The notes under the pieces: generated by a model
The model's input: only the letters and a program-made list of their open reading frames with translations
Told to the model about the DNA's origin: nothing
Database searches by the model: none
NCBI RefSeq assembly: GCF_019710575.1
Contig: NZ_JAHWFK010000036.1
Span: 1-64,000, forward strand
Direction: 5' to 3'
Source of the DNA: Paractinoplanes polyasparticus
GTDB lineage: Bacteria > Actinomycetota > Actinomycetes > Mycobacteriales > Micromonosporaceae
Length of the DNA stretch: 64,000 nt
Part shown: one piece after another, positions 17,992-39,967 of the stretch
Layout: each line of letters opens with the position of its first letter
Position numbering within the stretch: position 1 is the stretch's first letter
Translations under genes and position numbers: made by a program

Positions 17992-18092
17992 CCCACTCCA
18001 TGATCGAAGTCGTGCGCAACGCCCGTCCGGCCGACGGGTAGCTTTCGAATGGCGTGCCCGGGGTAGACGACCGGCGGCGGAGGGAGACGGTG

Positions 18093-19670
18093 ATGGATTC
18101 TCGGCGGCGCGTCCCGCGCACGGACGTCGTCCTGGCCGATCCCCGGCTGGTCACGGCCACCGCGACGGAGGGCCGCGCGGCCGTGAAGGCGGCCGTCGTG
18201 GCCACGCTTCAGCGCGTACGGGAAGGAAAGCTCGAGCCGGAAGCCGTGGTCGACGCCGCCCTGGCCGCCCTGCCCGGCGGCCTGCGCCCGGTGCTGAACG
18301 CGACCGGCGTCGTCCTGCACACCAACCTGGGCCGCGCCGCCCTCTCCCCCGCGGCTCGCGAGGCCGTGGCCGCCGCGGCCGGCCACACCGACGTCGAGCT
18401 CGACCTGACCACCGGCCGCCGGGCCAAGCGCGGCCGCACCGCGCTGGCCGCCCTGCACCGGGCCGTCCCCGCCGCCCGCGACGTCCACGTGGTCAACAAC
18501 GGCGCCGCCGCCCTGGTGCTGGCCGCAACCGCCCTGGCCCCCGCCGGCGGCGAGATCATCGTCAGCCGCGGCGAGATGGTCGAGATCGGCGACGGCTTCC
18601 GCCTCCCCGACCTGCTCGAGTCGACCGGCGCCCGCCTGCGCGAGGTGGGCACGACCAACCGCACGACCCGGGCCGACTACGAGCGGGCCATCGGCCCCCG
18701 AACCGGCTTCATCCTCAAGGTCCACCCCTCCAACTTCGTCGTACGGGGTTTCACCAGCGCCGCGTCCGTGCCGGAGCTGGCCACCCTGCCCGTCCCCGTG
18801 GTCGCCGACATCGGCTCCGGCCTGCTCACCCCCGACCCGCTGCTTCCGGACGAGCCCGACGCCCACACCACCCTGTCCGAGGGCGCCGCCCTGGTCATCG
18901 CCAGCGGCGACAAGCTGCTCGGCGGCCCCCAGGCAGGCCTGCTGCTCGGCGCCGCACCCCTGATCGAACGCCTCCGCCGCCACCCACTGGCCCGCGCCCT
19001 TCGCGTGGACAAGCTCACCCTGGCCGCCCTGCAAGCCACGCTGACCGGCCCGGAAACCCCCACGTGGGAAGCGCTACGCGTCTCACCCGACGCTCTGCTC
19101 GCCCGCACCCGGCACGCCCGGACCCAGCTGGCCGAGGCGGGCGTCCAAGCCGACATCGTGCCTTCGGACGCCGTAGTGGGTGGGGGTGGCGCGCCCGAGC
19201 TGACCCTCCCGTCGTGGTCGCTCGCGCTGCCACCCGCATACGCGTCCCCCTTGCGAACCGCCCCGACGCCGGTAGTGGGCCGGGTCGAACGCGACCGTCT
19301 GCTGCTCGACCTGCGCTGCGTCCCGCCGTCCGCCGACCCCGCCCTGGTGGCAATGGTCGTCTCCGTCGCGTCATCCCGGGCCCAGCCGCCCGGCACACAA
19401 CCCACCCCGGCCGGGGCACAACCCGCCGACCCATCCACGCCAGCCGGGGCACAACCCGCCGACCCATCCACGCCAGCCGGGACACGGCCCGCCGAACGAC
19501 CCACGCCAGCCGGGGCACGTCTCGCCGAACGACCGGCGCGCGCCGGAACGGGCTTCGCCGAACCGCCGACGCCACCCGGAGCGGGCCTCGCTGAGCCATC
19601 GACGCCGCCCGGGTCAGAGCCCGACGAACAGCCGACGCCGGCCCGCGCGCCCGCGGCGAAGGGCCGTTGA
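18093..19670 (+). CDS. selA: L-seryl-tRNA(Sec) selenium transferase
   Basis: PLP enzyme that converts seryl-tRNA(Sec) to selenocysteyl-tRNA(Sec) using selenophosphate. About 525 residues. Family landmarks: 'RRRVPRTDVVLADPRL' N-terminus, 'VLNATGVVLHTNLGRAALS', 'VVNNGAAALVLA', and the PLP-lysine region 'IASGDKLLGGPQAG'. ATG 18093 follows GGAGGGAGA; the GTG at 18054 is less likely. The last ~100 residues are extra to the family: seven 11-residue repeats of the type AGAQPADPSTP, encoded by 33-bp repeats. selB begins at the stop codon (TTGAGCATG), so the two are coupled. Confidence 0.95.
   Translation: MDSRRRVPRTDVVLADPRLVTATATEGRAAVKAAVVATLQRVREGKLEPEAVVDAALAALPGGLRPVLNATGVVLHTNLGRAALSPAAREAVAAAAGHTDVELDLTTGRRAKRGRTALAALHRAVPAARDVHVVNNGAAALVLAATALAPAGGEIIVSRGEMVEIGDGFRLPDLLESTGARLREVGTTNRTTRADYERAIGPRTGFILKVHPSNFVVRGFTSAASVPELATLPVPVVADIGSGLLTPDPLLPDEPDAHTTLSEGAALVIASGDKLLGGPQAGLLLGAAPLIERLRRHPLARALRVDKLTLAALQATLTGPETPTWEALRVSPDALLARTRHARTQLAEAGVQADIVPSDAVVGGGGAPELTLPSWSLALPPAYASPLRTAPTPVVGRVERDRLLLDLRCVPPSADPALVAMVVSVASSRAQPPGTQPTPAGAQPADPSTPAGAQPADPSTPAGTRPAERPTPAGARLAERPARAGTGFAEPPTPPGAGLAEPSTPPGSEPDEQPTPARAPAAKGR
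19410..19640 (+). repeat. 33-bp coding repeat, seven copies, in the selA 3' end
   Basis: Seven in-frame 33-bp units encode AGAQPADPSTP and variants. Units 1 and 2 are identical at DNA level; the others diverge progressively toward the 3' end. The repeat lies beyond the conserved SelA fold. Confidence 0.9.
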
Positions 19671-19672
19671 GC

Positions 19673-21571
19673 ATGCACGTCCCGGCCACCGCCGGACACG
19701 TCGACCACGGCAAGTCGACGCTGGTGCAAGCCCTCACCGGCATGGAACCCGACCGCTGGGCCGAGGAACGCCGCCGCGGCATGACGATCGACCTCGGCTT
19801 CGCCTGGACCACCCTGCCCGCAGGCGACACGGTCGCGTTCGTCGACGTCCCCGGCCACGAACGCTTCGTCCCGAACATGCTGGCCGGCATCGGCCCCGTC
19901 CCCGCCGCCATGATCGTGGTGGCCGCCGACGAGGGCTGGAAACCCCAGTCGGCCGAGCACCTGGCGGCGCTGGCGGCCCTCGACGTACGCCATGGTCTGC
20001 TCGTCGTGACGCGTAGCGACCTCGCCGACCCGGCTCCCGCCACAGCCCAGGCCTTGGCCGAGATCGCCGCCACGCCGCTGGGCCACGTGCCCGCCGTAGC
20101 CGTGAGCGGCCTGACCGGCGCCGGCCTGGACGACCTGCGCGCCGCGATCGAGACGCTGGTGGCCGCCCTGCCCGCGCCGGACCTCGACGAGCCCGTACGG
20201 CTGTGGATCGACCGGGCGTTCACCGTCAAGGGCGCAGGCACAGTGGTCACCGGCACCCTGGGCGCAGGCACCCTGCGCGTAGGCGACGAACTGGCCCTGG
20301 GCGACACGCTGGTACGCGTACGCGGCCTGCAGTCCCTCGGCCGCCCCGCCGATGCTGCGCCCGCAGTGGCCCGCGTAGCGGTAAATCTGCGCGGCACCCC
20401 CCGAGACGACGTAAGCCGGGGCGACGCCCTCCTCACCCCCGGCCGATTCCGCCTCACCGATCTGATCGACGTGCGAGTACACGGCGACCCCACCACCGAC
20501 CTGCCCAGCACAATGACCCTGCACACCGGTTCGGCCGCAGTCCCCGTCCGCGTACGCCCGCTGGGCCCCGACACAGCCCGCCTGCGCCTGTCCCGCCCGC
20601 TCCCCCTACGCATCGGCGACCGCGCCCTGCTACGCAACCCCGGCCTGCACCACGTAGCCGGCGGCGTAACAGTCCTGGACGTCCTCCCACCCGGCCTCCA
20701 ACGCCGAGGCGCCGCAGCCGCCCGAGCCAAGGTCCTGGCCACATTGGATGGCCACCCCGACCTGCCCGGCGAGCTCGCCCGCCGCCACCTGATCCGAGCC
20801 ACCACCCTGGCCGAGATGGGCATCCCTCTGCCGCCGCCGTCGCTCCCCCATTCCCTTCCCGCGCGACCCGCCGCCGAGAAGACCCGTGACCCAGAGGTGC
20901 CCGCACGAGGAACACGCCGGTCCGCGCCGACGCCGAATCGGCCAGACCCCAACGCCGGCCCGGCGATCGCCGATCCACCGCCCGGTCCCGTCTCCATCAC
21001 CCCGGTGGCCGGCGAATGGTATGCCGACTCGTCCTATTGGAGTTCGCTTCGCGAACGGCTCCCCGCCGAGGTCACGGAGTACCAGAAGCAGCACCCCCTC
21101 GAGCCCGGCATGCCGCTCGAAGCACTCCGCCACCGCCTCGGCCTACCCGACCGCACGTTGGTCACCGCTCTGATCCGCGCGCCTCTGTCAATGCGGAACG
21201 GCCGGGTCGCCGCGGTGTCATCCGGCCCGCCCGACGAGCTGGTCGCCCTGGTCGGGAAAGCTTTCGACGGCCTGGGACCGTTCGCCGCCCCCGAGGCACA
21301 TACCCTGGCCGATCTCGGGCTGGGCCCCCGTCAGCTCGCAGCCGCCGCCCGCACCGGCCTGGTCGTCCAGCTGACGCCCCAGGTAGTCCTGGCAGCCGGC
21401 GCGGTCGACGACGCGGCCGCAATCCTGGCCGGCCTCCCGCAGCCCTTCACGCTGAGCGAGGCCCGCCGAGCCCTGGACACCACCCGCCGCGTGGCCGTTC
21501 CCCTCCTCGAACTCCTCGACCGCCGAGCGATCACCCAGCGCCTCCCGGACGACCGCCGCCAAGTCCGCTGA
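19673..21571 (+). CDS. selB: selenocysteine-specific translation elongation factor SelB
   Basis: 632 residues. GTPase that carries Sec-tRNA(Sec) to the ribosome at UGA codons marked by a SECIS element. G1 motif 'AGHVDHGKSTLVQALTG' (residues 7-23), G2 region 'RGMTIDLGFAW', G3 'VDVPGHERFV'. The G4 position reads 'TRSD' rather than the common NKxD/TKxD. EF-Tu-like domains 2-3 follow. Winged-helix repeats that bind SECIS RNA form the C-terminus ('YQKQHPLEPGMPLEALRHRLGL' ... 'EARRALDTTRRVAVPLLELLD'). A Pro-rich linker (~residues 383-443) separates the halves. ATG 19673 or TTG 19667 (overlapping the selA stop) are possible starts. Confidence 0.95.
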   Translation: MHVPATAGHVDHGKSTLVQALTGMEPDRWAEERRRGMTIDLGFAWTTLPAGDTVAFVDVPGHERFVPNMLAGIGPVPAAMIVVAADEGWKPQSAEHLAALAALDVRHGLLVVTRSDLADPAPATAQALAEIAATPLGHVPAVAVSGLTGAGLDDLRAAIETLVAALPAPDLDEPVRLWIDRAFTVKGAGTVVTGTLGAGTLRVGDELALGDTLVRVRGLQSLGRPADAAPAVARVAVNLRGTPRDDVSRGDALLTPGRFRLTDLIDVRVHGDPTTDLPSTMTLHTGSAAVPVRVRPLGPDTARLRLSRPLPLRIGDRALLRNPGLHHVAGGVTVLDVLPPGLQRRGAAAARAKVLATLDGHPDLPGELARRHLIRATTLAEMGIPLPPPSLPHSLPARPAAEKTRDPEVPARGTRRSAPTPNRPDPNAGPAIADPPPGPVSITPVAGEWYADSSYWSSLRERLPAEVTEYQKQHPLEPGMPLEALRHRLGLPDRTLVTALIRAPLSMRNGRVAAVSSGPPDELVALVGKAFDGLGPFAAPEAHTLADLGLGPRQLAAAARTGLVVQLTPQVVLAAGAVDDAAAILAGLPQPFTLSEARRALDTTRRVAVPLLELLDRRAITQRLPDDRRQVR

Positions 21572-29279: not shown

Positions 29280-29341
29280 CTCCCCGCGTGCTCACGACGT
29301 GCATTGGTGTGCCGAATGGGCCTGCGGCGCCACGGTGAAAG

Positions 29342-29434
29342 CGGAGGCGGACGGGAATCGAACCCGCCTGGCCCGGATGCCGGGCCACACCGGTTTTGAA
29401 GACCGGGAGGGGCACCAGCCACCTGAACGCCTCC
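29342..29434 (-). tRNA. selC: tRNA-Sec (anticodon UCA)
   Basis: 93-nt gene without an encoded CCA. The acceptor stem is GGAGGCG/CGCCTCC, the anticodon arm is CCGGT-CTTCAAA-ACCGG with UCA reading UGA, the variable arm is long (GGCCCGG-CAT-CCGGGCC), and the T arm reads GCGGG-TTCGATT-CCCGT. G73 is the discriminator. The 8th acceptor pair typical of bacterial tRNA-Sec is a mismatch (T-C). It lies between the serine hydrolase gene and selD, its 5' end facing selD across 60 bp that must hold both promoters. Confidence 0.97.
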
Positions 29435-29494
29435 GGGCGTAACTCTAGACGCCTGGACGGGCGGTGTGATCAGTGCCGTGCCAGAGTGGGGGTT

Positions 29495-30505
29495 GTGACT
29501 GCTGTTGATGCGCCGCGACTCACCCAGTACGCCCATGGCGGAGGCTGCGCCTGCAAGATCCCGCCCGGGGAGCTGGAAGCCGTGGTGGCGGGGCTCGTCG
29601 GTACCGGTCTGCCCAAGGGGCCCGGCGAGCTGCTTGTCGGGCTTGACGACGGGGACGACGCGGCCGTGGTGAGCCTCGCCAACGGCACCGCGGTGGTGGC
29701 TACGGCCGACTTCTTCACGCCCGTGGTTGATGACGCCTACGACTGGGGGCGCATCGCGGCGGCCAACGCGCTTTCCGATGTGTACGCCATGGGTGGGACG
29801 CCCGTGGTTGCCGTGAACCTGCTGGCCTGGCCGCGGGATCTGCTGCCGATGGAACTGGCGGCCGAGGTGCTGGCGGGAGGGCTGGCCGTCGCCCGGGACG
29901 CGGGATGCCACCTTGCCGGTGGGCACAGCGTGGACGACCCGGAACCCAAGTACGGCATGGCTGTCACCGGCATCGCCGATCCGCACCGGCTCATGCGTAA
30001 CGACGCCGGGGTGGCCGGGGTGCCGCTGACGCTGACCAAGCCGCTCGGCGTCGGCGTGCTCAACAGCCGGCACAAGGCCACCGGTGAGGTCTTCGCGCAC
30101 GCCGTCGACGCCATGACCACGCTCAACCGGACGGCCTCGGTCGAGGCGCTGAAGGCCGGCGCCGTGTGCGCCACCGACGTGACCGGCTTCGGGCTGCTCG
30201 GGCACCTGCACAAACTGGCCCGGGCCAGCGGTGTCACCGCCCGCGTCGACGCGCGGGCCGTCCCGTACCTCGAAGGCGCTCGCGAGGCCCTGCGGGACGG
30301 GTACGTCAGTGGTGGCACCCGCCTCAACCTCGACTGGGTGCGGCCGCACCTCGACAGCGGCGTCAGCGAGGACGAGCTGCTGCTGCTGGCCGACGCGCAG
30401 ACGTCGGGCGGGCTGCTGGTGGCGGGCGAGGTGCCCGGCTTCCCGATCGTCGGCGAGCTGCTCCCGGCCCGGGCGGACGGCCGGACGCTGGAGGTTCGCG
30501 CTTGA
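29495..30505 (+). CDS. selD: selenide, water dikinase (selenophosphate synthetase)
   Basis: 336 residues. Makes selenophosphate, the selenium donor for SelA, from selenide and ATP. The active-site segment is 'YAHGGGCACKIPPGEL' with Cys (not Sec) at the catalytic position and the essential Lys. The AIRS-type ATP-binding fold follows: 'NALSDVYAMGGTPVVAVNL', 'LAGGHSVDDPEPKYGMAVTG', 'MTTLNRTASVEAL', 'TDVTGFGLLGHLHKLA' and 'DAQTSGGLLVA'. GTG 29495 with GGGGG upstream fits the family N-terminus; an upstream extension in frame crosses the tRNA gene and is rejected. A MerR-type gene follows. Confidence 0.95.
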   Translation: MTAVDAPRLTQYAHGGGCACKIPPGELEAVVAGLVGTGLPKGPGELLVGLDDGDDAAVVSLANGTAVVATADFFTPVVDDAYDWGRIAAANALSDVYAMGGTPVVAVNLLAWPRDLLPMELAAEVLAGGLAVARDAGCHLAGGHSVDDPEPKYGMAVTGIADPHRLMRNDAGVAGVPLTLTKPLGVGVLNSRHKATGEVFAHAVDAMTTLNRTASVEALKAGAVCATDVTGFGLLGHLHKLARASGVTARVDARAVPYLEGAREALRDGYVSGGTRLNLDWVRPHLDSGVSEDELLLLADAQTSGGLLVAGEVPGFPIVGELLPARADGRTLEVRA

Positions 30506-31110: not shown

Positions 31111-32364
31111 TCAAGCTGACGCCGGCCCGCCCGGAACTGACGGCGGGGCCGCTGCACCACCGCTGACCTTGACGCCGCCCGCCTTGTTCAGGCCCTCGCG
31201 CTGCGGGATGACCGTGTAGCGCGGATCCTTTGCCGACTCTACGCCGCCCTCGAACACCCCGAAGCGGGTCAGCGCCGAGCCGGCCAGCAGCGAGGCGCCG
31301 GCCAGCGCCGACACGACCCGGCTGCGGTGTCCCACGACCGCGCCGACCGCTCCCACCGCAGTCAGCAGACGGGCGGCACGCAGCAGTTTGCCCGGTCGGC
31401 CCTTCCGGTACGGTTCGCTCAGCAGCCCGTGCCCGTGCTCGACCCGGTGCCCGGCCGCGAGCTCGACCGCCGCCCCGGCCACCGCCATGCGCCGCATCGA
31501 CCGGCCCGGCGCCGCGACCAGCCCGACACCGGCGCCACTGGCCAGCGCGCTTCCGGCGAACATGAAGGGCAGGTCCGGGTACGCGGCGTTCCAACTCGGC
31601 ACAGCGGTGTCCGAGAAAAGCACTGCGGTGTACGTGGCCAGCCCCGGAGCGAGCAGGGCGGCCCCATACCCGGCGGCCGCACCGACCGGCGGCAGCACCT
31701 TGCGGGCCAACCCGAGCACACCCCTGTCCGGCAGGAACGGCGCGACCTCGGCCGCTGCCGCCACGCCCGCCGCGCCACCGAAGAAGCTCAGCAGCCAGGT
31801 GCCCATCGACATCGGCGAGGTCGGCTTGGCCACCCGCAGCATGTGGTGGAAGCGGTCCGGCCGCCCCAGGTCCTTGATCAGGAAGAACGCGCTGGCCCCC
31901 AGCGCCCCCATGGCCGTGGCCCGCCCCGCGACGCGCAGCACCGGGTCGTTGGTGGCCTGCCCGCCCGCCGCGACCATCGCCGACCCGGCGGCCAGCCCAC
32001 CGGTGAACAGGTAGATCGCAATGTCATGTGTCCACACCGGCGGCCGCACGATGGGCCGCCCGTAATAGGACTGAAAGTCGGCCTCGGGCACCATCGACCG
32101 GTCCCCGCCCCGGCCACGTCTGCCGCCGCGCCTGCCGCCGGACCGCTCGCCCGAGGACCGGCCGCCCGACGAACGACCACCCCGGGACCGAACGCCCAAC
32201 GAGCCGCCATCCAAGGAGCCGCTGCCCGAGGCGCCGCTGTCCGACGAGGCGCTGCCCGAGGCGCGGCTGCCCGAGGCGCCGCTGCCCGAGGCGCCGCGAT
32301 CGGATGAGCGCTGGTCCGAGGAACGTTCGTCCGGGGTGGGCACGCCGGAGGAAGTCGGGCTCAC
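31111..32364 (-). CDS. fdhC: formate dehydrogenase membrane subunit (NrfD/PsrC-like)
   Basis: 417 residues. After a ~90-residue Ser/Gly/Arg-rich N-terminus (repeats such as 'GASGSRASGSASS'), the conserved part begins at 'MVPEADFQSYYGRPIVRPPVW'. It contains about eight hydrophobic segments of the NrfD family ('DIAIYLFTGGLAAGSAMVAA', 'SMGTWLLSFFGGAAGVAAA', 'ALLAPGLATYTAVLFSDTAVP'). It should anchor FdhA-FdhB and pass electrons to quinone. GTG 32364 overlaps the fdhB stop (GTGA), so translation is coupled. The disordered N-terminus is not typical for the family. Confidence 0.9.
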   Translation of the reverse strand: MSPTSSGVPTPDERSSDQRSSDRGASGSGASGSRASGSASSDSGASGSGSLDGGSLGVRSRGGRSSGGRSSGERSGGRRGGRRGRGGDRSMVPEADFQSYYGRPIVRPPVWTHDIAIYLFTGGLAAGSAMVAAGGQATNDPVLRVAGRATAMGALGASAFFLIKDLGRPDRFHHMLRVAKPTSPMSMGTWLLSFFGGAAGVAAAAEVAPFLPDRGVLGLARKVLPPVGAAAGYGAALLAPGLATYTAVLFSDTAVPSWNAAYPDLPFMFAGSALASGAGVGLVAAPGRSMRRMAVAGAAVELAAGHRVEHGHGLLSEPYRKGRPGKLLRAARLLTAVGAVGAVVGHRSRVVSALAGASLLAGSALTRFGVFEGGVESAKDPRYTVIPQREGLNKAGGVKVSGGAAAPPSVPGGPASA

Positions 32365-33662
32365 TTGCGCCTCCCGGCGAATGCGACAACCGCCGTGGCG
32401 GCCATGGTCAACGCGGCCAGACCGGCCCGCTTCCACATCGCCACGACGTCGCGGGTCGGCACGTGCGGGTCAGGCGGCAGCCCGTACACCTCGGGCTCGT
32501 CGAGCAGCAGGAAGAACGCGCCGTCCCCGCCCACCCCGTCCGACGGGTCGTTGCCGTACAGCCGCGCCTCGGCCACCCCTTGCGACTGCAGCGTCTCGAG
32601 CCGGCGCGCGGCCCGCTCGCGCAGCTCGTCGAGCTCACCGAACTGGATCGACTCGGTCGGGCAGGCCTTCGCACAGGCCGGCTCGAGCCCGTCACCGATC
32701 CGGTCGTAGCAGAGCGTGCATTTCCAGGCCCGCCCGTCGTCCTCGCGCCGGTCGATCACACCGTACGGGCACCCGGAAATGCAGTAGCCGCAACCGTTGC
32801 AGATGTCGTCCTGCACCACGACCGTGCCGAACTCGGTGCGGAACAGCGCCCCCGTCGGGCACACGTCGAGGCAGCCCGCGTGCGTGCAGTGCTTGCAGAC
32901 GTTCGACATCATCAGCCAGCGGAAATCACTCCGCGGCGCCTCGTTCACCCGCCCGGGAAGATCAGTCATCGGCATGCCCAGGAACTCGCCGCTCCCCGAA
33001 GCGCCAACCCCGATGGCGCCCGCCCCGGAAGCGCCAACACCAGAAGCACCGCCGTGAGACGAGCCGCCCGCACAAGCGCAGCCCTCAGAGGCCCCGGCCC
33101 CCGAACCGCAGCCCCCGGAGGAGCCGGCCGCAGAAGCGCCACCGCGAGACGAGCCACCCCCACAAGCACAGCCCCCGGAAGTGTCACCGGAGCCGCACCC
33201 CCCGGTGGCGCCCGGCGAAGGAGCAGCACCGATGAATTCCGTACCGGCGGTGGCCGCCGCGGCCAGAGCGTCAACGGCCGGCGGAATCCCCGGCGACGTC
33301 CCAGTGTCCGGGGCGGACCGCGCAGCCACCACATTGGTCGCCGGCACGGAACTCGGCCCTACCGGCAGCCCCGCGAAGGCCCCCGGCGTGTCGGTGGCCG
33401 CCCCGGAGGACGACCGGGGCTGCTCGATGAACGCCACATGCCGCCACGAATTGGCTGTCAGCCCGCCCGTGTTGTCGTACGACTGACCGAGCAGGTCGAA
33501 CCCGTCGTCCGGCACCGCGTTCCAGGTCTTGCAAGCCACCTCGCACGCCTTGCATCCGATGCACACCGAGGTGTCGGTGAAGAACCCCATCCGCGGCGGC
33601 GCGTCGGTGTACCCGGCGTCCAGCGCCGGATCGAGCGGCCCGTACAGGCTATTGCTGCCCAT
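32361..33662 (-). CDS. fdhB: formate dehydrogenase iron-sulfur subunit with Gly/Ser/Cys-rich insertion
   Basis: 433 residues; family members are about 280-330. Four 4Fe-4S clusters are expected: 'CIGCKACEVACKTWN' near the start, then 'CKHCTHAGCLDVCPTGAL', 'CNGCGYCISGCPYGVI' and 'CTLCYDRIGDGLEPACAKACP'. Between the first and second groups lies an insertion of ~150 residues. Its second half is almost only Gly, Ala and Ser with paired-Cys units (GGCGSG, GGCACGG, EGCACAGG). A C-terminal hydrophobic helix ('LAALTMAATAVVAFAG') may dock on FdhC. ATG 33662 lies inside the fdhA 3' end (14-bp overlap). Confidence 0.93.
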   Translation of the reverse strand: MGSNSLYGPLDPALDAGYTDAPPRMGFFTDTSVCIGCKACEVACKTWNAVPDDGFDLLGQSYDNTGGLTANSWRHVAFIEQPRSSSGAATDTPGAFAGLPVGPSSVPATNVVAARSAPDTGTSPGIPPAVDALAAAATAGTEFIGAAPSPGATGGCGSGDTSGGCACGGGSSRGGASAAGSSGGCGSGAGASEGCACAGGSSHGGASGVGASGAGAIGVGASGSGEFLGMPMTDLPGRVNEAPRSDFRWLMMSNVCKHCTHAGCLDVCPTGALFRTEFGTVVVQDDICNGCGYCISGCPYGVIDRREDDGRAWKCTLCYDRIGDGLEPACAKACPTESIQFGELDELRERAARRLETLQSQGVAEARLYGNDPSDGVGGDGAFFLLLDEPEVYGLPPDPHVPTRDVVAMWKRAGLAALTMAATAVVAFAGRRK

Positions 33663-36600
33663 CTTCGTCCCTCGGGGTCTCGATCGGCGTGTGATGCCCG
33701 GGCGTGAGGCCCGCGCGGTCACGGTAGCCCTGCACGTACGTCAGAAGCTCGGGCCCCGACGGCCGGCGCCCCGGCTGGATGTCGCAGGTGCCGACCTTGC
33801 TTTCCTGGATGAGCACGTTGGGGTCGAGCGTGATGCCGATCAGGTCGTTGGCCGAGTCGCCGGTGACCAGGCCCTCGCTGCCCCAGTGGTACGGCAGCCA
33901 CAGCTGGTGCACCACCCGTCCGTCGATCCGCAGCGGCGCCAGCCGGTCGGTGACCATGACCTTGGCTTCGATCGCCGCGCGCGCCGTGACGATGTGCGCC
34001 CAGCCCAGGTGTTCCAGCCCGCGCTCGGCGGCCAGTTCGGGCGACACCTCGACGAACATCTCGGGCTGCAGCTCGGACAGGTAGGCCAGCTGCCGGCTCA
34101 TGCCGCCGGCGGTGTGGTGCTCGGTCAGGCGGCTGGTGCTGAAGACGAACGGGTAGACCTCCGAGTGCAGTTCGGGCGGGCTCGGGTTGGTCAGGTTGTC
34201 CGAGCGTTCGTACACCTTGCGGGTCGGGTTGGCCTGCTGGCCGTACAGCGGGTTGCGCACCATCGACTCGGCCGGCTCGTAGTGGGTCGGCATCGGGCCG
34301 TCGATGAGGCCGCTGGGCGCGTACAGCCAGCCCTTGCCGTCGCCCTGCATGATGAACGGGTCGTCGCCGGAGATGGCCTCGACGCCGCTCGCGCCCTCGG
34401 GCGGCCGGTACGACGGCGGCTTCGTCTTCTCGAAGTCGGGCACGTCCTCGCCGACCCACTCGCCCTTCGCCTCGTCCCACCAGACGTACTTCTTACGCTC
34501 GGACCACGGCTTGCCGTCGGGGTCGGCCGAGGCCCGGTTGTAGAGCGTGCGACGGTCGGCCGGCCAGGCCCAGCCCCACTCGCGGGCGACGTAGTTCTGC
34601 TCGCGGCCGGGCTTGCGCCGGGCGGCCTGGTTTACCCCGTCCTTGTAGACGCCGGTGTAGATCCAGCAGCCACCCGACGTGGAGCCGTCCGGCTTCATCT
34701 CGGTGAAGCTGCTCAGCAGCTTGCCGGTGGTCAGGTCGTACCCGTTGATCTCTTTGAGGACATCCTCGCCGCTGGGCTCCTGCAACTCGCCGTGCAGCTC
34801 GTAGTCCCAGGTGAGCTTGCGGATGCCCTCGTCGCGGGGGCGGGCCGAACCGGCCAGCCGCTCGCGGATGATGCGGCCCAGGTGATAGAAGAACCACAGC
34901 TCGCTGCGGGCGTCGCCCGGCGGCTCGACGGCCTGCTCGCGCCACTGCAGCATGCGCTGGGTCTGGGTGAAGGTGCCCGACTTCTCGGCGTGCGAGGCGG
35001 CCGGCATGAAGAAGACCTCGGTCTTGCACTCCTCGGGCACGATTTCGCCGGTGCCGATCTCGGGCCCGTTCTTCCAGAACGTGGCGCTCTCGATCATGAA
35101 GAGGTCGCGGACCACCAGCCAGTCCAGGTTGGCCATGCCCAGGCGCTGCGCCTTGCCGTGAGCCGAGCCGACCGCCGGGTTCTGCCCGAGCAGGAAGTAC
35201 CCCTTGATCTTGCCGTCGATCATGTCGAGGACCTGCTGGTACGTGCCGTGATCGCCGGTCAGGCGGGGCATCCAGCCGTACCCGTAATCGTTCTGCTCGG
35301 TCGCCGCGTCGCCCCAGTAGGACTTGAGCAGACTGACCGCGTACGACTTGGCGTTCGCCCAGAAGCCGGACTGCTCCGGGTGCCGGATCGCGTCGATCCA
35401 CTGGTCGAACGACTCGTGCTGCTTGAAGTGCGGCATCGGCAGGTAGCCCGGCAGCAGGTTGAACAGCGTCGGGATGTCGGTCGAGCCCTGGATGCTGGCG
35501 TGCCCGCGCAGCGCCATGACGCCGCCGCCCGGCCGGCCCACGTTGCCCAGCAGCAGCTGGATGATCGCGCCGGCCCGGATGTACTGCACACCGACGCTGT
35601 GCTGGGTCCAGCCCACCGAGTAGACCAGCGCGGTCGTCCTCTCCCGGCCCGAGTTCGCCGTCCAGGCCTCGCAGACCTCGAGGAATTTGTCCTGCGGGAC
35701 GCCGCACAGGCGCTCCACGACCTCGGGGGTGTAGCGGGCGTAGTGCCGCTTGAGCACCTGGTAGACGCAGCGTGGGTGCTGCAGGGTCGGATCCCGCGGC
35801 ACGTCGGCCGGGATCGGCGGACCGTGCGATTCCTGCTCCAGGCCCGAGGCGGTTTCCCGGTCGGCGTGCGACTCGTCCTCCTCCTGGCCCTCCGCCTGCT
35901 GCCCCGCGTACTGCCAGCTGCCCTGGTCGTACGTGTTCAGCTCGGAGTCGTAGCCGGAGAACAGCCCGTCGAGATCCTCGGTGTCCTGGAAGTCCTCGCT
36001 GACGATCATGGACGCGTTGGTGTACGCGACGACGTACTCGCGGAAGTCCTTCTCGTTGCTCAGGATGTAATTGATCACGCCACCCAGGAACGCGATGTCG
36101 GCCCCGGCCCGCACCGGCAGGTAGGTGTGCGCGAGCGCGCTGGTGCGGGTGAAGCGCGGGTCGACGTGAATGACCTTCGCCCCGCGGTTCTTCGCCTCGA
36201 CCACCCACTGGAAGCCCACCGGGTGCGCTTCGGCCATGTTGGAGCCCTGGATGATGATGCAGTCGGCGTTAGCCAAATCCTGGAGGAAGTTGGTGGCCCC
36301 GCCACGGCCGAAGGAGGTCCCCAGACCGGGGACGGTGGCGGAGTGTCAAATACGGGCCTGGTTCTCGATCTGGATGGCGCCGATCGCGGTGAAGAGCTTC
36401 TTGATCAGATAGTTCTCTTCGTTGTCGAGCGTCGCCCCACCGAGGCTCGAGATTCCCAGCGTACGGTTCAGGGGGCGCCCGTCGTCGTCCGAGTCCTGCC
36501 AGGTCGCGTCGCGCGCGGCCAGCACCCGGTCGGCGATCATCTCCATCGCCGTGTCGAGGTCGAGCTCTTCCCAGTCCTTGCCGTACGGACGGCGGTAGAG

Positions 36601-36915
36601 CACCTTCTGCTGCCGGCGGTCGCTGGTGACCAGGCTCAGGCTGGCCGAACCCTTGGGACACAGGCGGCCGCGCGAGATCGGGCTGTCGGGGTCGCCCTCG
36701 ATCTGGACGACCTTCTCGTCCTTGACGAAGATGCGCTGCCCGCAGCCGACCGCGCAGTAGGGACAGACCGACTTGGCGACCCGGTCGGCGGTCTCGGTGC
36801 GGGCGGTCAGCGCCTTCGACTTGGGAGATTGCGCGGCGGCGCCCCGGCCCAGGGGATCGGCGCCGGTGAGCTGCCGGTAGACCGGCCATCCCTCGATCCA
36901 GGTCTTGACTCCCAC
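33649..36915 (-). CDS. fdhA: selenocysteine-containing formate dehydrogenase catalytic subunit (Sec190 at in-frame TGA)
   Basis: 1088 residues if the TGA at 36346-36348 is read as Sec. Molybdopterin enzyme oxidising formate to CO2. N-terminal 4Fe-4S motif CPYC-AVGC with Cys51, 54, 58 and 86 ('GRLCPKG'). Sec190 sits in 'IENQARI-U-HSATVPGL', matching FdnG's 'ARVUHGPTV'. Then come 'GRGGATNFLQDLANADCIIIQGSNMAEAHPVGF' and the molybdopterin domains. The frame is the same on both sides of the TGA and a SECIS hairpin follows. GTG 36915 starts 'MGVKTWIEGWPV'; no twin-arginine signal is seen. An acidic insertion occurs at ~338-370 ('GQEEDESHADRE'). fdhB overlaps the 3' end. Confidence 0.95.
36299..36348 (-). 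promoter_or_regulatory. bacterial SECIS element and Sec UGA codon of fdhA
   Basis: On the minus strand, UGA (36348-36346) is followed after 4 nt by a 7-bp lower stem (CCGCCAC/GTGGCGG). A 6-bp upper stem follows (GTCCCC/GGGGAC) capped by the pentaloop GGTCT. The loop lies 18 nt after the UGA. A GU-containing GGUCU-type apical loop at this distance is what SelB recognises in Escherichia coli fdhF and fdnG mRNAs. Confidence 0.93.
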
Positions 36916-37041
36916 GATCAAGACCCTACGCCAGCCCCCGGATGGCTGCACCCGGAGCGGAAGCGGCCGATCTGGGATGCACAGCACGGTTTACGACGCC
37001 GGATGGCGCCCGAACAGCACTCCGGCGTGATACTGGGGTGG

Positions 37042-37290
37042 ATGGCTACTTCCCGGCGTCCCGTGCCCATGCGGCGGTGCCCCCGTTGCGGGCACCAGAC
37101 GCGCGCCGACCGCATGGTGAAGGGCTTCGGCCGCGACTGCGCCGCCCAGCTGGGCCTGATCGGGCGCTCGGTCGACACCGGCCACGACGGGCCCGACCTG
37201 CTCGACGAGCTGCGCGCCGTCACCGCCTCGTCCGAGGAGGACTCCTGCGACGGCTGGGACCGGCCGGGCGACGGCCCGTACGGATGGTGA
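37042..37290 (+). CDS. small zinc-ribbon-like protein
   Basis: 82 residues from ATG 37042, divergent from fdhA. The N-terminus has a CxxC pair ('RRCPRCGHQTRADRMVKGFGRDCAAQLG') with a third Cys 19 residues on, resembling DUF6011-type short zinc-binding segments of actinobacteria. The remainder is acidic. Function unknown. An in-frame GTG at 37027 would add five residues. The gene shares a 126-bp promoter region with the formate dehydrogenase operon. Confidence 0.6.
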   Translation: MATSRRPVPMRRCPRCGHQTRADRMVKGFGRDCAAQLGLIGRSVDTGHDGPDLLDELRAVTASSEEDSCDGWDRPGDGPYGW

Positions 37291-37356: not shown

Positions 37357-38424
37357 GTGCCCGGCGGCGGCTCGACCCGCTACGACCTCGACCTGATCTT
37401 CGACATCACGGCGGCCCGTGACCTCTTCACCTTCGAGCTCACCTATTACCCGTGCGAAACCACGACCACCACCTTGACGTGCCCGGTGAACACCGGCGGA
37501 ATGTCGAGTTACCTCATGACGACCGCCAAGCCCGGCGCCCCGGTCGGCACGACAGCGACCATTCCGGTCCGGGCCGTCCTCGACGGCAACACGGTCGCGC
37601 GGGCGACCGGCACCGTCACGGTCGCCGAAGAGGTCTCGCTGGCCGCGGTCGAGGCGCAGGACGACATGTCGATCGGCAGCGGCCGCACGTTCGGGCTCGC
37701 CGCAGGCGTCCGCAACACCGGCGACAGCCCCATCTCCGGCGTGGTCCTGCAGCTCCGGACGGTCGCCGGCATCCGCACGGCCGACTACGCCAACTGCACC
37801 AACGTCGTGACCGACCCGAACATCCCGCCCGACTCCGGCGCCATCTGCCTGTTCGACGCCGAGCTGGCCCCCGGACAGGAATACCGCCTGGCCACACCCT
37901 GGCAGGTCACGGCGACCGACCTGGTGTGGGCGCCCAGTCAGTGGCTCGCGTCGTTCCAGTGGTCCACCGCGCAGGACTTCACCGACCAGGGCGGCAAGCT
38001 GCCGACCGGCGGCGACGGCCCCGAGCTGGAACTCGCCGCCGCGGTCACGGCCCGGGCCGTCCCCCAGACCGAGCCGGAGCTGGTCTACAACAACGTCGAC
38101 GAGTGGCAGCTGCACGTCACCGGCCGCAACACCTCCACGCTCACGGTGCGGGGCGACACGGCGAGCGGCCAGGTCGGCAGGAACGTCACCGTCCGCACCA
38201 GCGTGCGCAACAACGGCCCGGCCCTCGGCCCGATCCCGTACCGCGCCCCCATCGTCATCACCGCGACCGGTTCACCCGCCACCGGCAACGGCAGTGGCAA
38301 CGGCGGCGAGGGCGGCGGTGGCGGCCTGCCGATCACCGGCAGCAACACCACCGTTGTCGCTCTGATCGGCCTCGCGCTCCTTGTCGCCGGCGCCGCTGCC
38401 CGCCTGACCACCCGCCGACGGTAG
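37357..38424 (+). pseudogene. LPITG surface protein, truncated copy without signal peptide
   Basis: 355 codons from a GTG. Throughout its length it is a paralogue of the next gene (shared 'PGQEYRLATPWQVTATDLVWAPSQWL', 'NNVDEWQLHVTGRN', 'VTVRTSVRNNGPA'), ending in an anchor signal 'GGGGLPITGSNT', a membrane helix and Arg tail. Compared with that gene it lacks ~60 N-terminal residues including the signal peptide, and ~120 residues before the Gly-rich spacer. An in-frame TGA lies ten codons upstream. Without export it cannot reach the wall, so I treat it as eroded. A GATCAGG/CCTGATC dyad sits just upstream. Confidence 0.7.
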
Positions 38425-38434
38425 AGGCCATCTG

Positions 38435-39967
38435 ATGCGCAAGCTCGCGAATGTCGCCCTGATCGCCCTCCTGGCCGCGCTGATCGCCCCGGCGCCGGCC
38501 CAGGCCGCAGCCACCCCGCGGAAGCTGACGCTGAACCGCACCAGCGTCGCGCCCGGCGACTCGGCCGCCCTCAGGCTGAGCGTCGACACGCCCACCGTGG
38601 GCACGAGCCGCAACAAATACGATCTGGTCTTCGACATCTCGAGGGCTCAAGGTCTGATCACGTTCCGGCCCAACTTCTCGACCGCGTGCACCACCACGGC
38701 CACGACGTTGACCTGCGCACTCAACGACCGGGGCTTCAGCGGAGCCGTGGAGCTGACCGCCGCATCGGACGCCCCGGCCGGCACGATCGTGACGCTGCCG
38801 GGCCGCATCGTTGCCGGCGGCCGGACCGTGGCCACCGCGACCGGCGCCATCACGGTGGCCGAGGCGGTCTCGATCACTCCCTTGCAGCTTCAGGACGACG
38901 TCTCGGTCGCGACCGGCGCGACGGCGAACCTCGCCGCCGGCATCCGCAACACCGGCGACCGTCCCCTCACGGGCGTCGTGCTGCGACTGCAGACGGCTGT
39001 CGGCATGCGCACCCCGGACTTCGGCAACTGCACCCCGATCCAGGGCCGGGGCGCGGTCAGGCCGACCGCCGGCGCCGCCTGTCTGTTCGTGGGCGAGCTG
39101 GCGCCCGGTCAGGAATACCGCTTGGCCACCCCGTGGCCGGTCACCGCGACCGACGCCGTGTGGGCGCCGAGCCAGTGGCTGTCGTCATCGACCTGGTACA
39201 CCGCGCAGGACTGGCTCGACCAGGGCTTCGCACTCCCGGGCAGCGGCGACGGCGACGAGCTGCGGCTCAGCCCGGCGCCGGGCGCCGTGGGAGAAACGCT
39301 TCCCCAGACCGAGGTTGATCCGAACGCCAACCCGGACAACAACGTCGACGAGTGGCAGCTGCAGGTCACCGGCCGCAACCACTCCACCTTCACCGTCAAG
39401 GGCGACACGGTGAGCGGCCGGGTGGGCCGGACGGTCACCGTACGCACCAGCGTGCGCAACAACGGCCCGGCGCGGCTGGAAGGCTGGGGCAACGACCTGG
39501 CCGCTTTCCTGACGGTCACGGTGACGCCGCCCGCCGGCACCACCGTCGTCGGGCACTCGAAGCTGTGCCGGCCGTTCAATGTCGACTACCCGACCCCCGG
39601 CGTGCCGTGGCCGGACGGCGCCGACTTCGACGACGGCAACTACTACTGCTGGACGGGCATGTTCGAGGGTCTCCCCTACTTCCCGGGCGAGACGGTCACC
39701 TTCGACTTCAAGCTGCGTGTCGACAAGCCCGGCGCCCTCCGCGGCAAGATCCGCACGAGACTCGTCCCGGGCGAAGCGCCTCCGGTCGATCAGGAGGAGG
39801 CCATCGTCGTGAACGCGGCCGGGGCCCCGACCACCGGTGGCGACGGCGGCGGAGGTGGCGGCGGGGGCCTGCCGATCACCGGCAGCAACACCGTGGCCGC
39901 CGCCCTGATCGGCCTCCTGCTGCTCGTCGCGGGCGCCGCGACCCGCTTCGCCACCCGCCGCCGCTGA
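38435..39967 (+). CDS. LPITG cell-wall-anchored surface protein
   Basis: 510 residues. Signal peptide 'MRKLANVALIALLAALIAPAPAQA', then two or three immunoglobulin-like beta domains (DUF11-like, 'AAGIRNTGDRPLTGVVLRL', 'VRTSVRNNGPARLEG'), a Gly-rich spacer, the sortase motif LPITG, a hydrophobic helix and 'RFATRRR'. It should be attached to the cell wall by a sortase, which is not in this window. It lies 10 bp after its truncated paralogue and was probably created with it by tandem duplication. The ligand is unknown. Confidence 0.85.
   Translation: MRKLANVALIALLAALIAPAPAQAAATPRKLTLNRTSVAPGDSAALRLSVDTPTVGTSRNKYDLVFDISRAQGLITFRPNFSTACTTTATTLTCALNDRGFSGAVELTAASDAPAGTIVTLPGRIVAGGRTVATATGAITVAEAVSITPLQLQDDVSVATGATANLAAGIRNTGDRPLTGVVLRLQTAVGMRTPDFGNCTPIQGRGAVRPTAGAACLFVGELAPGQEYRLATPWPVTATDAVWAPSQWLSSSTWYTAQDWLDQGFALPGSGDGDELRLSPAPGAVGETLPQTEVDPNANPDNNVDEWQLQVTGRNHSTFTVKGDTVSGRVGRTVTVRTSVRNNGPARLEGWGNDLAAFLTVTVTPPAGTTVVGHSKLCRPFNVDYPTPGVPWPDGADFDDGNYYCWTGMFEGLPYFPGETVTFDFKLRVDKPGALRGKIRTRLVPGEAPPVDQEEAIVVNAAGAPTTGGDGGGGGGGGLPITGSNTVAAALIGLLLLVAGAATRFATRRR

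Follow-up and report, generated by a model that had tools for sequence, protein, structure and literature searches.

The 64,000-nucleotide stretch of Paractinoplanes polyasparticus DNA analysed here (assembly GCF_019710575.1, contig NZ_JAHWFK010000036.1, positions 1 to 64,000 of the forward strand; hereafter the window) carries on its minus strand a gene for the alpha (catalytic) subunit of a formate dehydrogenase (FDH) with an in-frame TGA. The frame runs from 36915 to 33649 and consists of 189 codons, of which the first is a GTG start, the TGA at 36346-36348 as codon 190, a further 898 codons and a stop. With selenocysteine (Sec) at residue 190 the predicted product is 1088 amino acids long, and its N-terminal WPxxRQ region is conserved in relatives. 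A sequence-only reading of this DNA had described two minus-strand frames in the same phase, split by the TGA and flanked by the peptides IENQARI and HSATVPGL; both the coordinates and the flanks were exact. Its fragment sizes stood in part. Under translation table 11, the open reading frame (ORF) list gave one piece of 213 amino acids (36346-36987, from an upstream GTG) and one of 875 amino acids (33649-36276, from a TTG). The larger size was as described, but the smaller piece, put at 200 residues, has 189 amino acids from the conserved start and 213 from the first GTG.

Open frames alone are weak proof of a gene in this DNA because GC-rich sequence yields long frames by chance. An open frame of 1253 amino acids on the plus strand (33529-37290) spans the entire alpha gene in antisense and is most likely a by-product of high-GC codon usage. 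The case was therefore built on homology and comparison. In a window-wide scan, TGA codons were filtered by the open frame around them, GC at third positions and the presence of a hairpin downstream. Six passed, and the codon-190 TGA came top, with a score of 12.5 against 6.5-9.0 for the five other candidates.

The read-through protein scored 1968.5 bits against NF041513 (formate_DH_Act), an actinobacterial family of NCBI with a cut-off of 1400, and covered model positions 2-1066 of 1067. It is a full-length member of this family with no difference found, in keeping with the earlier description of a complete catalytic subunit of about 1088 residues with Sec190. It aligned with 1kqf_A on either side of residue 190. 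The identity with E. coli FdnG was 42% (411 of 976 aligned columns), and residue 190 fell on FdnG Sec196, so the TGA occupies the Sec site of FdnG-type enzymes, as had been claimed. Four Cys residues at positions 51, 54, 58 and 86 presumably fit the [4Fe-4S] site of the alpha subunit. Among the best 80 of 419 relatives, the nearest named ones were Paractinoplanes pyxinae and P. aksuensis, with 95% and 94% identity in the best segment, respectively. The gene had been called hidden, which is true only in part: a curated NCBI model of its family exists, and a 1080-amino-acid formate dehydrogenase alpha subunit of Rhodococcus equi is listed from RefSeq (PMC13332983), although two Sec alpha subunits were given without accessions in a 2020 paper (PMC7176365).

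The codon at the site was compared in 107 loci, of which 27 came from a search of a genome set (the window's own locus included) and 80 were the best of the 419 relatives; some of them are the same gene, and the query peptides that fetched the 80 relatives did not span the codon-190 site. The codon was TGA in 104 loci, TAG in one and TGC in two. A relative lacking both Sec and Cys at this position, which the sequence-only reading had named as evidence to the contrary, was not seen in any of the 107. Homology across the TGA, the restriction of the codon to TGA, TAG or TGC and the top rank in the window scan together go beyond chance. Nine Micromonospora assemblies contributed two enzyme loci each to the best 80 of 419, all with TGA (L072/L077, L070/L088, L071/L100, L075/L091, L076/L107, L081/L105, L084/L104, L086/L113 and L092/L096).

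The window also contains the machinery for Sec insertion. The selenocysteine synthase gene selA (18054-19670, plus strand) is followed by selB (19667-21571, plus strand), whose product, the Sec-specific elongation factor, has SelB winged-helix domains. An ORF containing selD lies at 29396-30505 on the plus strand; its model match starts at 29516 and there is no internal stop. The tRNA-Sec at 29341-29434 (minus strand), with anticodon UCA (TCA in DNA), gave a whole-length match to the tRNA-Sec model, at 80 bits, and the next match in the host genome scored 47.1. The presence of all four genes near the FDH gene was thus correctly noted before: they lie within 16 kb of it, with selA and selB about 12-16 kb away. 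The host genome has one selA match, and fdhD is present.

The relation between codon and machinery was examined in 40 genomes, the window's own included. A stop-bearing alpha gene over the cut-off was present in 25 (24 with TGA, one with TAG), and selA and selB were over their cut-offs in all 25. In 11 of the remaining 15 genomes there was no selA over the cut-off, and none of these 11 had a stop-bearing alpha gene over the cut-off. Two genomes, G030 and G028, carry a stop-free alpha gene with TGC, which is in fragments in G028; no selA over the cut-off was found in G030. For tRNA-Sec, a match had to reach 60 bits to be counted, because the Rfam gathering score, exceeded in 34 of 40 genomes and in 5 of 14 controls, fails to separate true tRNA-Sec. 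By this threshold, 24 of the 25 stop-bearing genomes have the tRNA, the exception being the 82%-complete genome G036, and in 21 of the 25 it lies within 10 kb of the alpha gene as read from coordinates. ARAGORN assigned the anticodon TCA to 27 of 28 tRNA-Sec loci and CTA to one, which belongs to G038, the genome with TAG. In G038 (L033, L142, L148, L149), the dehydrogenase gene has TAG and so do two UGSC-like genes, one above and one below the UGSC family cut-off, and ARAGORN labels the CTA-anticodon tRNA at the tRNA-Sec locus as tRNA-Pyl. The picture across the 40 genomes is nearly clean, with UGA accompanied by a UCA tRNA, UAG by a CUA tRNA, and UGC in a genome without selA. This pairing is helpful to annotation and sets up no new principle.

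Downstream of the UGA, at 36317-36333 on the minus strand, the transcript can form a hairpin resembling a bacterial Sec insertion sequence (SECIS), with a 6-bp stem GUCCCC/GGGGAC and a loop GGUCU that starts 18 nt after the UGA. The loops at the same offset in E. coli are GGUCU in fdhF and AGUCU in fdnG. Of 30 distinct sequences with a stop at the site, 29 keep all six pairs and one keeps five; the two Cys sequences keep three and four of the six. Covariation at synonymous sites was used because thermodynamic stability was uninformative. In 96 distinct genes, which remained from 105 stop-bearing loci when duplicates were dropped, the facing wobble columns 17 and 29 were CG in 72, UA in 17, UG in six and GU in one. 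The mismatch C-A was never observed, against about 13 expected for independent columns (72 x 17 / 96). The loop codon was GGT in 94 of the 96 genes and AGT in two, and GGT makes up 13% of the other Gly codons in these genes.

On this evidence the frame almost certainly encodes one complete alpha subunit of a formate dehydrogenase of the molybdenum or tungsten bis(molybdopterin guanine dinucleotide) type, in which the UGA is decoded and the metal-ligand residue 190 is Sec. The Sec reading is supported by the alignment with FdnG, the conserved UGA with UAG or Cys as the sole alternatives, the linkage to the Sec machinery and the SECIS-like hairpin. Several observations weigh against it. The stability of the hairpin, calculated for a 44-nt region, was no greater than that of shuffled sequences (z = 0.02), and because related genes are not independent, fewer events occurred than the covariation counts suggest. 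The machinery and the enzyme are not paired without exception: G028 has the TGC form yet possesses selA and tRNA-Sec, and G018, G032 and G034 have selA and tRNA-Sec without an NF041513-family enzyme over the cut-off.

Among other explanations, the UGA might act as a selenium switch, with termination mostly at residue 189, read-through when selenium is plentiful and a short product with a role of its own. This idea draws on Actinomycetospora chiangmaiensis, an aerobic actinomycete that builds up formate when no selenite is added but hardly when it is (PMC7176365; this and the other papers cited are taken from excerpts). That observation, however, shows selenium limitation only, and a 189-residue piece lacks most of the enzyme and shows no sign of function, which makes a switch improbable. 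Decoding of the UGA as Cys or Trp, through a suppressor tRNA or by non-specific read-through, is more improbable still. Residue 190 is assigned here from sequence, which leaves room for such decoding, but the whole-length tRNA-Sec match with its UCA anticodon, the hairpin whose synonymous-site covariation is joined by degradation in both Cys homologues, and the co-occurrence with selA and selB all argue for Sec. A pseudogene, in which the TGA would be a recent nonsense mutation or a sequencing error in a Cys enzyme, takes a single base change from TGC and Cys versions are known (L008, L034), but it was ruled out for practical purposes by the conservation of the stop codon in the 107 loci, with TGA at the identical codon in 104 of them across several families, the frames otherwise uninterrupted and selA and selB in 25 of 25 stop-bearing genomes.

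The alpha gene is followed on the minus strand by genes for two further subunits. The iron-sulphur beta subunit (32361-33662), related to FdnH and FDH-beta, is also related to 1kqf_B; its score of 191 bits against TIGR01582 is below the cut-off of 334.7. Between its Fe-S motifs lies an unusually long loop rich in Gly, Ser and Cys. The loop is repeat-like, measuring 231 amino acids from the first motif to the next and containing 13 Cys as compared with the usual seven. Across 101 of 108 beta sequences with the pattern, this stretch ranges from 80 to 231 amino acids, motifs included, and that of the window is the longest; the 108 count the window twice, as itself and as L013. Several other loci of the Actinoplanes group have shorter Cys-bearing versions of the loop.

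The membrane (gamma) subunit (31111-32436) is NrfD-like (PF03916), with an uncertain start. Relatives align from about residue 115, and the roughly 114 residues that precede the shared part (32095-32436) form an N-terminal extension of low complexity, rich in Ser, Gly and Arg. E. coli FdnI scored 32 against this protein, inside the range of shuffled FdnI (mean 29.9, maximum 38), so the gamma subunit is of the NrfD rather than the FdnI kind. A crude hydrophobicity scan found six stretches, and a phmmer search against solved structures gave no match at E up to 1. Of the 107 loci, 71 have enough sequence to look for the gene, and tblastn placed a gamma relative downstream of alpha in 70 of these; this search replaced a strict regular expression that had found it in 43 of the 71.

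E. coli FdnG starts with MDVSRRQFFK, a twin-arginine translocation (Tat) motif, whereas the window's alpha subunit has no such motif. A pattern able to detect the motif of FdnG found none in the first 60 residues in any of the 107 loci, the window's own included. A looser pattern found RRW in three of the 107, without a hydrophobic stretch comparable to that of FdnG. The description of the system as FdnG-type therefore holds for alpha and beta and not for the complex as a whole, in which no Tat signal was found and the membrane gene is NrfD-like rather than FdnI. Since the search for a twin-arginine signal was negative, a cytoplasmic active site is probable.

The sequence itself shows the open frame, the match of residue 190 to Sec, the decoding genes, the hairpin and the neighbouring subunits. 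From these, together with established knowledge of the families, we infer how the enzyme may be made and may work. Sec would be made on tRNA-Sec(UCA) by SelA and SelD and brought to the ribosome by SelB, positioned by the hairpin 18 nt past the UGA, and the UGA would then be decoded without termination. Formate would be oxidized at Sec190/His191, with the electrons passing through the [4Fe-4S] cluster of alpha (Cys51, 54, 58 and 86) and the Fe-S clusters of beta to the NrfD-like membrane subunit and probably on to menaquinone. The apparent two-part gene would then be one enzyme, and formate oxidation in this actinomycete would be tied to selenium supply.

The search for other selenoproteins in the host covered four families rather than the whole genome. 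No UGSC family match was found in the host genome (such matches occur in 2 of 40 genomes), and there was no internal stop in the listed AhpC/TSA matches, in selD or in the other listed Fdh-alpha-like matches. The same-genus genome G018 (L150, G018:C12:38000-57999) has tRNA-Sec, selD, selA and selB in one cluster. In G018 there was no NF041513-family enzyme over the cut-off and no stop in the listed Fdh-alpha-like matches or in selD. Scanning one 20-kb stretch each of G018, G032 and G034 turned up no gene with a convincing in-frame TGA; a separate FdhA-like gene of G034 contains a single TGA. Every Sec user in the set of PMC1794560, as excerpted, had FdhA or a Sec-containing SelD, whereas G018 has the machinery without a family FDH over the cut-off and with a stop-free selD. 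Unless G018 reflects an assembly gap or decaying remnant machinery, the genus might, as a tentative suggestion, encode a further selenoprotein that searches with a few families did not detect. If so, formate dehydrogenase would not be the sole reason that the Sec machinery is kept in the genus.

At 37357-39967 on the plus strand of the window lie two adjoining similar ORFs (355 and 510 amino acids). The C-terminal end of each has an LPITGSNT motif, a run of hydrophobic residues and a tail rich in Arg, and we take both to resemble sortase-anchored surface proteins.

The kind of enzyme found here is already described in actinomycete relatives and its family is already modelled by NCBI, so the find is an ordinary one. 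FdhA and SelD are the most widespread bacterial selenoproteins, and FdhA was present in 67 of 75 Sec users (PMC1794560). No paper that combines formate dehydrogenase, selenocysteine and Actinoplanes was found in a search of an open-licence library. In Geodermatophilaceae, FDHs that recode UAG have been described (PMC5330540). They resemble the relative in G038, with its TAG and CTA tRNA, and we infer that G038 belongs to that family; the window uses the ordinary UGA.

In A. chiangmaiensis DSM 45062, the clusters FDH1 and FDH2 have alpha subunits of 1078 and 1089 amino acids with predicted Sec, both given without accessions in the excerpt of this 2020 paper (PMC7176365). Compared by description only, FDH1 resembles the window in being listed with beta, gamma, SelA and SelB. 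It differs in that the FDH1 listing includes a permease gene and selD carries no cluster label, and selA and selB of the window lie about 12-16 kb from alpha. By the authors' account, the formate oxidation encoded in that genome is exclusively Sec-dependent, and the proteins were of low abundance (PMC7176365). Because its formate removal depends on selenium, A. chiangmaiensis supports the function of a Sec-containing FDH in an aerobe.

The subunit composition has its counterpart in FqoABC, a tentative formate:quinone oxidoreductase whose FqoC1 is reported from 59 actinobacterial species (Calisto and Pereira 2021, PMC8076601). As in the window, two FdnGH-like subunits are combined with an NrfD-like subunit. 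The excerpted passage on FqoABC states eight helices, as compared with the six stretches of our crude scan, and does not mention selenocysteine. The FDH-NrfD cluster of R. equi has the same layout as the window, with the 1080-amino-acid alpha from RefSeq and selenocysteine unmentioned in that paper (PMC13332983). That alpha subunit was predicted to be cytoplasmic by PSORTb and to have no signal by SignalP, whereas DeepTMHMM predicted a signal peptide (PMC13332983). With its probable cytoplasmic site, the window's enzyme departs from the E. coli Fdn loop, which is periplasmic, and is in line with FqoABC (PMC8076601) and the R. equi cluster (PMC13332983).

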